Part shown: piece by piece, positions 27,320 to 38,814 of the stretch | Numbering within the stretch: position 1 is the stretch's first letter | How the letters are laid out: each line of letters opens with the position of its first letter | Source of the DNA: a virus | Reading direction: 5' to 3' (one strand) | Length of the DNA: 38,814 bases | Virus record (IMG/VR): IMGVR_UViG_3300024346_000194 | Coordinates: 1 to 38,814 of that record | Notes under the pieces: generated by a model | Seen by the model: only the letters and a program-made list of their open reading frames with translations | What the model was told of the DNA's origin: nothing | The model's database searches: none | Program-made: the position numbers and the translations under genes

Positions 27320-27350
27320 AAAAAGGGCTCTTATTACGAGAGCCCTTTTT
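27320..27350. terminator. Bidirectional rho-independent terminator between convergent arms
   Basis: The sequence AAAAAGGGCTC pairs with GAGCCCTTTTT in an 11-pair stem around a nine-base loop, with A-runs on one side and T-runs on the other, so it works on both strands. It separates the plus-strand late genes ending at 27268 from the minus-strand nrdA gene ending at 27356. This is the clearest terminator in the window. Confidence 0.93.
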
Positions 27351-33140: not shown

Positions 33141-33372
33141 ATTTTTTATAATAATATTTATAATATTCAAATATTTTACCCCACAGTTCTCTAGGATTAA
33201 ATACTTCTGGTGATCTATTTATTTTTTTATTTATTTTTATTTCTATATACCAAAAAGTAAAATTTTCTTTACAAAAAGGTGATATATATATACCGTTATT
33301 TATACACCATCTATATGCTTTAAATTCTTCAGGAGTATATTGATAACCATTTGACTTTTTTTTTACTCCCAT
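33130..33372 (-). CDS. Small basic protein, unknown
   Basis: The 80-aa, Lys- and Tyr-rich protein contains YQYTPEEFKAYRWCINNGIY, then FCKENFTFWYIEIKINKKI and FNPRELWGKIFEYYKYYYKK. It overlaps the primase-helicase stop at its start (ATGGGAGTAA) and the thymidylate-synthase-fold gene at its end, so it is translated in the same operon. There is no zinc-finger or nuclease motif, although the two cysteines and the basic character would permit DNA binding. The family is not recognised. Confidence 0.6.
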   Translation of the reverse strand: MGVKKKSNGYQYTPEEFKAYRWCINNGIYISPFCKENFTFWYIEIKINKKINRSPEVFNPRELWGKIFEYYKYYYKKYEK

Positions 33373-35078
33373 GGCATTGGCTCATCGCTAGACATAGGCT
33401 CGTGAGGTATAAAACAACCAGATTTTGGCTCCCATTTAAAGTGTGCTTCAGCTCCGTTTTCACCGAGGTTTTGAAACTTAACTTTTAATACTTTAGCCTT
33501 TACAGTTTTCTCTTCATAATTTCTATGAACTAATATACCATGATAGCTAGCATCATACCATTCACCACCACCTTTTATATTATACATTGACGGTTCTTCA
33601 ATTTTACCTTCTTTGTCTTTGTACATTTTTGTAGGGTGAGCTACTATAAAAACTAGTACATCAAACTTTTTTGCAAATATTTCTATTTTAGTTAAATACT
33701 CCATTGTATAACGGTTAACGTCTTCTGTTTTACAGTCAACATCTCTTACTTTATTAAATGGATCAATAACTAAACATTTAATACCTTTACGTTTAACTAG
33801 CTCAGCACCTTTTCGTAATACCGATTCTAATGTATAACGTTCCATATCAATATGAAAATAATTACTATTACAATGATCAGCTATTTTATTCCATTTTTCA
33901 CCATGTATATCTGAAGCTGATGGCATACCTTGCCAAGTCTTTCTCATTAATTTGTGAGCATGTAAATACGTTGGCGCATTCTCTGGTGACGCAAAAGCAG
34001 TCTTCCAACCGTAGTTACGGTTATATCCGACAACCATTTGATCAACAAAGTCTGATTTCCCGCTACTAGGTATACCAGTGACCGTAATAAATTGACCGGT
34101 ATAAGTAGAAAATATGTCATCAAAATTCTCAAGGCCAACTTGATATCCCTTCTTAAAGCCATTACGAACAAAGTCAGTAACTTCATCTTCAATATCTCTG
34201 AATGTCGTAACATTTTCCAACGGTACGGGTCTCGCTCCGGTAATACGCTCTGCCAGTTTTTCTTTGCCATGTTTTTGTAAGTATTCATTAGCATCCTTGC
34301 AATCATCAAACGATGCTAAGTAACAAACCTCAGCTCCAAGCCTACGGACTAATTCTGATTGTAATGCTTGCCCTGCTTCATCTGAATCAACTGCTAATAT
34401 TATTTTTTCTTTATCTTCAAAATAATCTATACAATTATCAAGATAGTCAAGGTTGTTAGAATTTAACGTGGCACCATTAGGTACGGATATAACATTTGGT
34501 ATACCTGCTTCGTGTAAAGCTAACACGTCCATTTCGCCTTCAGTTATAATACAATATTCATAACCTACTATGCTATTTATATTATAGAATACTTTTTCAG
34601 CACCCTTATATAATTTAAAGTTCTTTCTGCCATCGCGATACTTAATATTAATAAGTTGATCACCCATGAAATAGTTAAACTTTATAGCGTTCTCGGTTTT
34701 ACCGGTCTGAGGCATATACTCAGAGCCTTGAGTAACTTTACAGTCAAGCAAGGTCTCTGGTGATATCCCTCTAGTTTCAAACCATTTCAATACTTTGTCA
34801 TCTGCTAGTTCCGGATATTCAGGATCTGGTTGTACAGGTCTAGCGTATTCTTTTTCACTAGCTCCTTTACGTTGATAACTATGTAACTGAAATGAAGTGT
34901 TACAATTATGACAAGTTCCGAGACCACGTTCCCAATCATAAGACGCGCATTTTGCCTTTTGATTTTTAGGTTTTCTATCGTGAGAACATAAAGGGCATAT
35001 ACCCTGTTTCTTACCCTCTTCAAGCTTATATTGATTGAAATCATCAATCAAGAATCCATTGATCTCTGTTGTCTGCAT
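33363..35078 (-). CDS. Primase-helicase (T7 gp4/Twinkle-like)
   Basis: Unwinds DNA and primes lagging-strand synthesis. The 571-aa protein has, in order: a zinc-binding domain with C28, C31, C56 and C59 (GICPLCSHD, GTCHNCN); a Toprim primase domain with E180 (ITEGEMDVLAL) and D231/D233 (ILAVDSDEAGQAL); and a RecA-like helicase with Walker A at 335-342 (GIPSSGKS), acidic CLVIDPFNKV and VLVFIVAHPTKM, plus GGGEWYDASYHGILVHR near the arginine-finger region. The length equals T7 gp4 (566 aa). No DNA polymerase gene is in the window to pair with it. A 70-base intergenic segment with a palindrome and hairpin lies directly upstream. Primer synthesis activity is likely but not certain from motifs. Confidence 0.92.
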   Translation of the reverse strand: MQTTEINGFLIDDFNQYKLEEGKKQGICPLCSHDRKPKNQKAKCASYDWERGLGTCHNCNTSFQLHSYQRKGASEKEYARPVQPDPEYPELADDKVLKWFETRGISPETLLDCKVTQGSEYMPQTGKTENAIKFNYFMGDQLINIKYRDGRKNFKLYKGAEKVFYNINSIVGYEYCIITEGEMDVLALHEAGIPNVISVPNGATLNSNNLDYLDNCIDYFEDKEKIILAVDSDEAGQALQSELVRRLGAEVCYLASFDDCKDANEYLQKHGKEKLAERITGARPVPLENVTTFRDIEDEVTDFVRNGFKKGYQVGLENFDDIFSTYTGQFITVTGIPSSGKSDFVDQMVVGYNRNYGWKTAFASPENAPTYLHAHKLMRKTWQGMPSASDIHGEKWNKIADHCNSNYFHIDMERYTLESVLRKGAELVKRKGIKCLVIDPFNKVRDVDCKTEDVNRYTMEYLTKIEIFAKKFDVLVFIVAHPTKMYKDKEGKIEEPSMYNIKGGGEWYDASYHGILVHRNYEEKTVKAKVLKVKFQNLGENGAEAHFKWEPKSGCFIPHEPMSSDEPMPWE

Positions 35079-35090
35079 TTAATTTAATTA

Positions 35091-35130
35091 CATTAATATT
35101 AATGCATACACACGCAAGTGTGTATAGCAT
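35091..35130. promoter_or_regulatory. 14-bp palindrome plus long hairpin upstream of primase-helicase
   Basis: A perfect 14-base palindrome CATTAATATTAATG (35091-35104) overlaps a hairpin: ATGCATACACAC (35102-35113), loop GCAA, then GTGTGTAT-A-GCAT (35118-35130), giving 12 pairs with one bulged A. On the minus-strand transcript it lies between the ssb stop and the primase ATG. No U-run follows on that strand, so it is not a simple terminator. It could be an operator, an mRNA processing site or a replication start element. Confidence 0.6.
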
Positions 35131-35148
35131 AGTTACTTTACATTCGCA

Positions 35149-35457
35149 TTAAAACGGTAAATCGTCATCAACTGTTTTAGGAGCCGCCGCTTGCTGAGGC
35201 TGTCCATCACGTGGAGCTGCACTTACGTTTTCACCGTTAGTCCATACTACTTGAACATTACCTAAATAAGTTTTAGCTGTTTTAGCTTCTCTTTCTTCTT
35301 TGCTTTGACCTATTACTATTGGACCTTGATTTCCAAATTGATCTAAGTCATCGTTTAAAGTTATTACAATAGGTAGGTATTTACCTTTTTTACCTTCAAT
35401 AACCTTTGATTTATCAACATTACTTAAGTTGATACTAGCTTTAATAATACTTGCCAT
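35149..35457 (-). CDS. Single-stranded DNA-binding protein-like
   Basis: The 102-aa protein has an OB-like strand pattern (MASIIKASINLSNVDKSK, KYLPIVITLNDD, GPIVIGQSK, LGNVQVVWTNGENVSA). A disordered Gln/Ala/Pro linker leads to an acidic tip DDDLPF. The DDDLPF end is the diagnostic C-terminal tail by which SSB proteins recruit partners such as helicases and recombinases. It is shorter than bacterial SSB (about 170 aa) and its OB core is too divergent to classify. It lies two bases after the exonuclease gene and before primase-helicase, in a recombination-replication operon, consistent with ssDNA protection. Confidence 0.75.
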   Translation of the reverse strand: MASIIKASINLSNVDKSKVIEGKKGKYLPIVITLNDDLDQFGNQGPIVIGQSKEEREAKTAKTYLGNVQVVWTNGENVSAAPRDGQPQQAAAPKTVDDDLPF

Positions 35458-36758: not shown

Positions 36759-36843
36759 TCGTTTGTTTTTAAATTGCTTATTATTATAATTACATGTTTA
36801 TATTATCGTTTACAAAATATACTATATCCGTGAGGTTGTAAAC
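36759..36843 (-). promoter_or_regulatory. Intergenic region between sigma factor and erf with inverted repeat
   Basis: The largest minus-strand gap contains GTTTACAA (36808-36815) and its exact inverse TTGTAAAC (36836-36843) separated by 20 bases, in A/T-rich DNA. The first base of the sigma-factor stop codon (TAG on the minus strand, 36843-36845) is part of the repeat. On the transcribed strand TATATTTTG resembles, but does not exactly match, the flavobacterial -7 element TAnnTTTG. A dimeric repressor or activator site, or a weak terminator for the sigma gene, is plausible. Confidence 0.45.
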
Positions 36844-37601
36844 TACAGAACGTCAAGCACTTGCGAGTGATCAACGCTTTCTATTAATTTATCTATTGCT
36901 TGTTTTTTTATTTCAGAAACTCTTACATATGCGCTGACTCCTTTTATATTTAATTTATTAGCTATTTCGTTTGCTGAATGTTTTTCACAGTCTAAACCAT
37001 ATGACAATCTTAATACGTTATAATGATTTGTTTCTGATCCTAAATGTTTTTGCATTAATCCCATTAAATAAACGTTTAAAAGCTGTATATTATACGGCTC
37101 TGATTTATCTGGTATTTGATATAATAAATTTTCATCATCTGTCTGTGATCTAGCATCTATACTTAAAAATATAGAATTAAAAAACATAGCAACCATTTTT
37201 TTATCTTTAGGATTCTTACGTATTTCATTTTGTTTGTATTCAGGTATTCTTATATCACCTCTTAACATATCTATTTTACGTCTTATTGCTCCTTTTATTC
37301 TTTTACTAAAAAATGATTTTAAAGTTTTTTCTATATCCTCTTTATCAATAAGCATTTCCCAGTCTATTTTATCAACTGCCTTTACTAAAGCCATAGAGCC
37401 TATTTGTAATAAATCTAATATACTTAAAACACCTGAAGCTTGTTGTGATGTAGAAAACTTTCTAGACATGGCTTCAACTAGTGGTAAAAATTTAATAACT
37501 AATTCATCTCTAGTGTAGTAATCATAAAACTTATTTTCTGGCATAGAAGATTTTATATCTTCTTTATATCTAATGTAGTTTTTTATGTTATACTTTTTCA
37601 T
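36843..37601 (-). CDS. Phage sigma-70-family RNA polymerase sigma factor
   Basis: Redirects host RNA polymerase to phage promoters. The 252-aa protein has region 2 at about residues 33-112: FLPLVEAMSRKFS, LSILDLLQIGSMALVKAVDK and FFSKRIKGAIRRKIDMLRGD, matching the core-binding and -10 recognition helices. Residues about 178-240 are region 4-like (NVLRLSYGLDCEKHSANEIA, NKLNIKGVSAYVRVSEIKKQ), with a helix-turn-helix for the -35 side. Region 1 is absent and the linker is short, as in group 3/4 or phage late sigma factors. It overlaps the HTH gene upstream by 14 bases and ends with TAG. The 30-base repeats before two late genes are candidate targets. Confidence 0.88.
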   Translation of the reverse strand: MKKYNIKNYIRYKEDIKSSMPENKFYDYYTRDELVIKFLPLVEAMSRKFSTSQQASGVLSILDLLQIGSMALVKAVDKIDWEMLIDKEDIEKTLKSFFSKRIKGAIRRKIDMLRGDIRIPEYKQNEIRKNPKDKKMVAMFFNSIFLSIDARSQTDDENLLYQIPDKSEPYNIQLLNVYLMGLMQKHLGSETNHYNVLRLSYGLDCEKHSANEIANKLNIKGVSAYVRVSEIKKQAIDKLIESVDHSQVLDVL

Positions 37602-38327: not shown

Positions 38328-38655
38328 TTTCTATTTTTATTTTAACGTTATTCCATTTACCTCCTTTTAATTCTTTATTAACTAAAAAGTCTATTCTTTT
38401 TGTCCATCTTTTATTCATGCGATCCTCAACCGTCCATATGCCATCTAATGAACCAGCGCCTTCAATGCATACTTTAGTACCAAAAACAAAACCATGTTGC
38501 TCTAGGTCTCTAGAAACAGCTATCCATCTATGTCCTTGTGGATTTTTTTCGTTTATTTTACTAAGAGAAGCAGTTGTTAAATAATCTGCGTTACATTGCG
38601 ATGGGTCAGCGTGATATATTGTTGCTGTTACTAGTATTGATATTAATATATTCAT
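38320..38655 (-). CDS. Secreted 3D-domain protein, probable peptidoglycan-active
   Basis: The 111-aa protein has a short signal peptide (MNILISILVTATIYHA, cleavage near A16/D17) followed by a 3D double-psi beta-barrel domain: GHRWIAVSRDLEQHGFVFGT with D50, then DGIWTVEDRMNKRWTKRIDF with D78 and D89. Three conserved aspartates define this family, found in MltA-type lytic transglycosylases and stationary-phase survival proteins that act on the cell wall. It may be a periplasmic lytic transglycosylase or wall remodeller. It uses TAG and overlaps the short peptide gene. It sits far from the main lysis genes and on the opposite strand, so it may act early or in host takeover. Confidence 0.8.
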   Translation of the reverse strand: MNILISILVTATIYHADPSQCNADYLTTASLSKINEKNPQGHRWIAVSRDLEQHGFVFGTKVCIEGAGSLDGIWTVEDRMNKRWTKRIDFLVNKELKGGKWNNVKIKIENE

Positions 38656-38814
38656 CTTCTAAGTATTAATTGTTCATCTTTTGCGGCTATTGTGTGTTTT
38701 TCTTGTTCATAATAATTCCAATACGCTGAAATACTGTCGCCATTTACTTTGTATTCATCAGGCATACACTGTGGGGGTTCTGTAAATTCTTGATCTGTAG
38801 GTATATTAGGAGGT
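38652..38814 (-). CDS. Unknown protein, C-terminal part (5' truncated)
   Basis: The frame is open to the window edge and gives at least 53 residues: PPNIPTDQEFTEPPQCMPDE, then YKVNGDSISAYWNYYEQEKH and TIAAKDEQLILRR. Its TGA overlaps the ATG of the 3D-domain gene (ATGA), so the pair are coupled and may work together in the envelope. The Pro-rich start of the visible part and helical end could suit a spanin or lipoprotein-type envelope protein, but the signal sequence is beyond the edge, so this is only a guess. Confidence 0.55.
   Translation of the reverse strand, partial: PPNIPTDQEFTEPPQCMPDEYKVNGDSISAYWNYYEQEKHTIAAKDEQLILRR

Follow-up and report, generated by a model that had tools for sequence, protein, structure and literature searches.

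Hairpins located between the cistrons of phage messenger RNAs are known to be bound or cut, as happens at the RNase III sites of T7 and at the translational-repressor hairpins, and in phage lambda the boxA of nut reads CGCTCTTACACA. The PeSL of T4-type phages, said to have been described by Arbiol and colleagues in 2010, are reportedly mobile regulatory cassettes that contain an early promoter and a stem-loop. In the halovirus HF2, the intergenic repeats of class II are 29 bp long, and promoter activity in a reporter was found for all nine cloned repeats (PMC8707807).

The element described here belongs to the broad kind of phage intergenic stem-loops or repeats, with a putative function. It was found in an IMG/VR virus record of 38814 bases (classed as linear and perhaps a fragment), the whole of which is called the window in what follows, and in two related contigs, G001 and G002. 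As in the PeSL, a short stem-loop lies in an intergenic gap, in the orientation of the genes, and is variably present between close relatives (3 of 184 distinct junctions, and a second site in G001); unlike the PeSL, it shows no promoter of the family type at its junctions, is seen in two lineages only and reaches at most two copies per record. With the T7 RNase III sites and the repressor hairpins it shares the location between genes of replication and the short distance to the next start codon, but the window has no Rfam match at gathering thresholds, and a binding partner or a cleavage is putative only. The likeness to HF2 (PMC8707807) consists in short repeated intergenic sequences in a virus of prokaryotes, and the difference is that the present element bears no match to the promoter motif seen in its own phage family.

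The gap in question covers positions 35079-35148 of the + strand (70 nt), from the ATG of the primase-helicase ORF to the stop codon of the ssb-like ORF, both of which are read from the other strand (Table 1). The initial annotation, made from the letters of the window, had noted here a palindrome, a stem and a gap, and all three are confirmed; some of the details need qualification. The stem does have 12 pairs, but a bulged base interrupts it (4 pairs, the bulge, 8 pairs and a 4-nt loop); the GCAA loop exists on the + strand, which is not transcribed, and the loop of the mRNA is UUGC (CUGC in two relatives); and the tightly packed strand that surrounds the gap has another one, of 84 nt (36759-36842). 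The absence of a U-run was correctly noted, since the stem is followed by TAATATTAATG, a tail that with five T in eight positions still leads a terminator scan to list the site. The distance from the end of the stem to the primase ATG is 23 nt in the window, and across the copies of the element 16-25 nt separate the stem from the next start codon.

Table 1. Features of the window that bear on the hairpin and its neighbourhood.
Feature	Position	Strand	Basis or remark
DNA primase/helicase (Toprim + DnaB-like), downstream gene	33363..35078	-	ORF and family annotation
Primase start and A/T-rich leader ATTAAATTAAATG	35076..35088	-	Leader comparison across junctions
14-bp perfect palindrome CATTAATATTAATG	35091..35104	.	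Chance-level; imperfect in two relatives
Stem-loop	35102..35130	-	ATGC, bulged T, ATACACAC, loop TTGC, GTGTGTAT, GCAT on transcribed strand
34-nt element (hairpin and 5' TAACT)	35102..35135	-	One mismatch (33/34) with G001 and with G002 at this junction, and likewise with the other copy in G001
Small ssb-like gene, upstream	35149..35457	-	Name from the initial annotation; PHROG 24909, function unknown
Promoter-like motif match (CACGGA...GATAATATA), at 36807	36798..36834	-	Upstream of the Erf-exonuclease-ssb-primase run
Truncated gene Y orthologue	38652..38813	-	Matches the G001 protein from residue 104 on, with 45/52 residues identical

The ssb-like protein has no Pfam match, and its acidic end, DDLPF, resembles that of SSB. 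The gene Y protein of G001 matches PHROG 624; given that the match in the window begins at residue 104 of that protein, the window ends inside gene Y and a second copy of its own, if there is one, lies out of view. Among cultured phages, those with the most similar primases are Cellulophaga phage phi10:1 (41.9%) and Tenacibaculum phage JQ (35.5%), which makes a Bacteroidetes host likely; metagenome bins with near relatives carry mixed names, Flavobacteriaceae included. Cultured phages gave no near match to the 1.1-kb region, and the best listed of their distant matches to the gap covers 35% of the query. In phi10:1 and JQ the primase is preceded by 1 and 4 nt, respectively, and the genes upstream are annotated only as hypothetical. 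Elsewhere in the window, a stem of 12 bp whose ends carry A/T runs (27320-27350) lies between convergent gene blocks and is likely to be a two-way terminator.

The window has three perfect palindromes of at least 14 bp where 60 dinucleotide shuffles have 5.7 on average, and the 14-base palindrome, perfect here and imperfect in two relatives, was rejected as a feature for being at chance level for this sequence. Hairpins in which 8 or more pairs follow one another without a break, around loops of 3-8 nt, number 14 (shuffle mean 8.4), and the 8-bp core by itself is unremarkable. For the whole gap, 6 of 500 shuffles reach as low an RNA fold energy on the + strand (z -3.2), and 61 of 500 do so on the transcribed strand (z only -1.3). 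When the 29-mers of the ssb-junction copies are folded in isolation, the antisense strand does slightly better (-14.3 vs -13.4 for the sense strand of the window); in context, pairing of the seven innermost pairs is at least 0.93 in both G001 copies and in G002, and the sense fold of the window is weak, with only 0.53-0.58 for the same pairs when 60-100 nt of flank are included. The ACACAC/GTGTGT arms still pair at 73-78% after sliding by two. What raises the hairpin above chance is its recurrence and its conservation, not its fold.

Recurrence was assessed in a comparison set built from protein-based scans, four in viral contigs and one in genome contigs, in which each viral scan contributes the best 80 of 597, 250, 139 and 584 confirmed matches, and absences refer to these lists. 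The 315 loci compared at this junction and the window include 245 with both genes in order, which reduce to 184 distinct junctions, counted as sequences and not as independent lineages. The hairpin is present in three of them, namely the window, L083 (contig G001) and L005 (contig G002), and because these two contigs share 99% identity in primase and ssb, it is known from two lineages only. A gap of at most 20 nt is found in 101 of the 184, a Cys-rich small ORF in 52, another ORF (of at least 15 aa) in 15, and none of these in 16. Two loci with closely similar primases are among those without the hairpin: L001 (94% identical), with a 9-nt gap, and L088 (95% identical), with a small ORF in the junction. 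As to the conservation in relatives that had been proposed as a check, there is near-identity in G001 and G002, and 181 of the 184 have no hairpin.

Wider searches led to the same contigs. When as many as 9 mismatches in 34 nt were allowed, 336 loci (2.43 Mb, with overlapping loci of one contig counted separately) contained the element only in the window, G001 and G002, without intermediates. A loose hairpin pattern matched five viral contigs, two of which have the element, and its matches in L163, L165 and L166 fall inside reading frames of other phages. A scan of the viral contigs for GTAACTATGCTATAC returned 56, in which the hairpin follows only in G001 and G002; a junction-length pattern returned these two and two records with another insert; and a scan for TACACACNTGCGTGTGTA returned, besides them, contigs L322, L323, L325 and L326, none with the 29-mer within 3 mismatches. 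In the openly licensed literature, none of the matches listed deals with this element.

The ssb|primase junction is, in its own right, a recurrent insertion site of small ORFs (for example in L029, L055, L088 and L133), and several of the 15 other ORFs are acidic, such as DYISI..DGNVTLIED. The gap of L116 measures 252 nt, with no Rfam match in that locus, and the gaps of L073 and L078 (139 and 170 nt) contain twin inverted repeats, AAGGTTATAGCCTT. The hairpin was also considered as the remnant of a small ORF starting ATGCTATACACATG, and this was rejected for want of a significant similarity, 35 of 300 and 27 of 300 shuffles being as good.

Between the window and G001, 33 of the 34 positions of the element are identical, and the fourfold sites are identical at 92 of 166 positions in primase and at 21 of 31 in ssb (55-68%). 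The binomial chance of such a match is 5e-5 at a neutral identity of 0.69, and only 0.003-0.02 at the overall identities of 0.79-0.84. Divergence is seen in the 5' part of the gap; after the hairpin come a few changes and small indels, and from there on the leader and the start of primase are highly similar (27-30 of 30), in a gene that has equally similar stretches. The element is no island of conservation. At fourfold sites, the ssb of the window is nearer to G001 (0.68) than to L001 (0.47), and its primase is nearer to L001.

A second copy of the element was found in G001 by pattern search. It is also identical to that of the window at 33 of 34 positions, and lies 3.75 kb away in the same orientation relative to the genes; its first three bases serve as stop codon to a 92-aa ORF, and the start of gene Y follows after 16 nt. 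Among the best 80 gene-Y loci, only G001 has the hairpin before gene Y. No second copy was found inside the window, and since G002 begins at ssb, one there, if any, is likewise out of view. The hairpins repeated within a gene-Y locus were this one and two matches that resemble tRNA arms.

The phage group shares a promoter-like motif with the consensus TACAaACt.AAtACgA, followed by GATAATATA about 25 nt after its first base. Intergenic sites of GATAATAT number 226 (218 of them on the + strand of the locus) in 36 distinct contexts, and in 28 of these contexts the motif is 8-102 nt before the start of an ORF; in L331 it is found on the + strand near 2564, 2962, 3568, 4225, 5111 and 9028. None of the matches listed in the literature corresponds to this motif. 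A position weight matrix trained on the exact GATAATAT sites, which gives low scores to variants and so speaks to the family-type promoter only, scores 18.0 at the Erf gap of the window (0 of 200 shuffles as high; training median 26.4), and 1.4, 0.5, 0.5 and -2.3 at the four copies of the element (33, 59, 49 and 150 of 200 shuffles as high). A family promoter in the gap was rejected on these scores, which are within those of the shuffles; for a sigma-70 promoter no site is listed there, and the Bacteroidetes promoter TAnnTTTG has only TAACTATG, with one mismatch and without TTG. Phage sigma factor genes occur in the window (36843-37601, -) and in L320 (613-1206, +), and these genes, of PHROG 351 and PHROG 1740, are candidates for readers of the motif. 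Long intergenic control regions, in L369 (150-480), L381 (250-470), L389 (250-560) and L402 (850-2060), have, close to promoter-like sites, a repeated dyad in variant forms, TGACAATAGCC...GGCTAATGTCA.

The explanation preferred here, put forward tentatively and with less than even confidence, is that the hairpin is the core of a 34-nt sequence-specific cis-regulatory element, most likely an RNA stem-loop that sets the expression of the gene downstream. The element sits in gaps between co-oriented genes (between ssb and primase-helicase and, in the case of G001, before gene Y as well) and would be transcribed together with them. Its letters, and not its pairing alone, appear to have been kept, a constancy that suggests a partner for binding or cleavage, which could be a protein of the phage or of the host, or an RNase; the downstream gene would then be set by processing, by protection or by translational control. 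With the promoter-like motif upstream of Erf, the hairpin would lie inside the transcript started there, and this, together with the lack of a family-type promoter at the element's junctions, makes action in the mRNA somewhat more likely than action as a DNA operator. All 36 pair cells are standard across three distinct rows, in which 11 pairs are invariant, no pair shows a two-sided (compensatory) change, and one changes from G-C to G-U; the latter pair forms on the sense RNA only, with the DNA symmetry broken, and mildly favours RNA.

The initial annotation had named an operator among its candidates, and the conservation of an intergenic element with a second copy in G001 agrees with an operator-like dyad as it does with an RNA element, although the operator now ranks below the mRNA stem-loop. 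As double-stranded DNA, the 8-4-8 inverted repeat ATACACAC-N4-GTGTGTAT might bind a dimeric regulator of the transcription of primase and gene Y: the inner dyad is perfect and varies only in its spacer, the left-arm word GTATAGCA/TGCTATAC leads the intergenic 8-mers with at least 3 G/C, and TGTATAGC/GCTATACA often has GATAATA downstream (12 of the 23 contexts detailed below). The word, however, is also over-represented in coding DNA and the association with GATAATA is not clean; moreover, neither junction scores as a family-type promoter, the conservation reaches the 5' TAACT, the one stem change keeps RNA pairing at the expense of DNA symmetry, and the window shows a single copy, so an operator is rather unlikely. 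A serious rival of another sort is the absence of any present function, since recent exchange could mimic constraint. The hairpin would then be a short insert in an indel-prone junction, common to two lineages by recent recombination or by descent, as might be expected from the variability of the junction, from the different nearest relatives that ssb and primase of the window have among those compared, from the high identity to G001 that runs into the primase start and from a slight, non-significant likeness to the start of a small ORF. The divergence of the 5' part of the gap next to a constant element, and the two near-identical copies that G001 keeps in unrelated surroundings, speak against it, and on balance it is possible but somewhat doubtful.

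Less credit can be given to the readings that concern termination or replication. An intrinsic terminator or attenuator between ssb and primase would have parallels in L310, L283 and L116, where stems followed by a T-run occupy the same junction, and the site is listed as terminator-like, but by a lax scan only (3 G-C pairs among the 9 counted, tail CATTAATATT), and no U-run follows the stem in the window, G001 or G002; this makes it highly improbable. The origin of replication or primosome-loading hairpin that had been suggested from the neighbourhood of ssb and primase-helicase and from the A/T-rich flank fares worst, and its probability is close to negligible. That flank is largely the leader of primase, with TTAAATTAAATG at the start of the gene in 61 of the 184 junctions, with or without the hairpin; the hairpin is missing from 181 junctions, those of L001 and L088 included, and has its second copy elsewhere; and the 101 junctions of at most 20 nt leave no room in the gap for an origin or primosome site common to the family. 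The GC skew, which had been recommended as a check, broadly tracks gene direction and does not switch near 35.1 kb.

The left arm of the hairpin contains a word, TGCTATACACA, with a wider distribution. It occurs in 63 distinct contexts (200 permuted words have a mean of 1.1 and a largest value of 19), many of which are orthologous coding positions, and some appear to be primase and thymidylate synthase. Between genes, TGTATAGC/GCTATACA has 23 distinct contexts, 12 of them with GATAATA within 140 nt downstream, as compared with 412 of 2295 random intergenic positions, in a test that is not clean, as some of the contexts look coding or are near neighbours and the counts are not independent. The 8-mer GTATAGCA/TGCTATAC of the left arm tops the intergenic 8-mers with at least 3 G/C by distinct contexts (16, among gene-Y relatives). 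By Markov z, the left-arm word is the fifth of 31133 8-mers in coding DNA and only about the 404th of 20313 in intergenic DNA. The resemblance of TGCTATACACA to lambda boxA would be a loose one, with a deletion and substitutions, and the family word is found in both orientations. In five of the seven loci scanned for tRNAs (L339, L347, L352, L357 and L385), TGCTATACACA immediately follows a stop codon and immediately precedes a tRNA-Met(CAT) gene. Judged from these words, the signal across the phage group would be a lead, not a result. One further proposal is for the present unlikely: the 34-nt stem-loop would be recognised by a phage-encoded protein that binds RNA or DNA and puts primase-helicase and gene Y under joint control, and would be one form of this wider signal, in which TGCTATACACA accompanies promoters, tRNA-Met genes and gene junctions.

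The comparison of relatives yields a recurrent insertion site of small genes, in a phage group that has many relatives in IMG/VR (at least 597 by primase), and the survey gives a testable promoter-like motif for this group. If the stem-loop is a control element recognised by a protein, it would offer a handle on how uncultured phages tune their replication genes.
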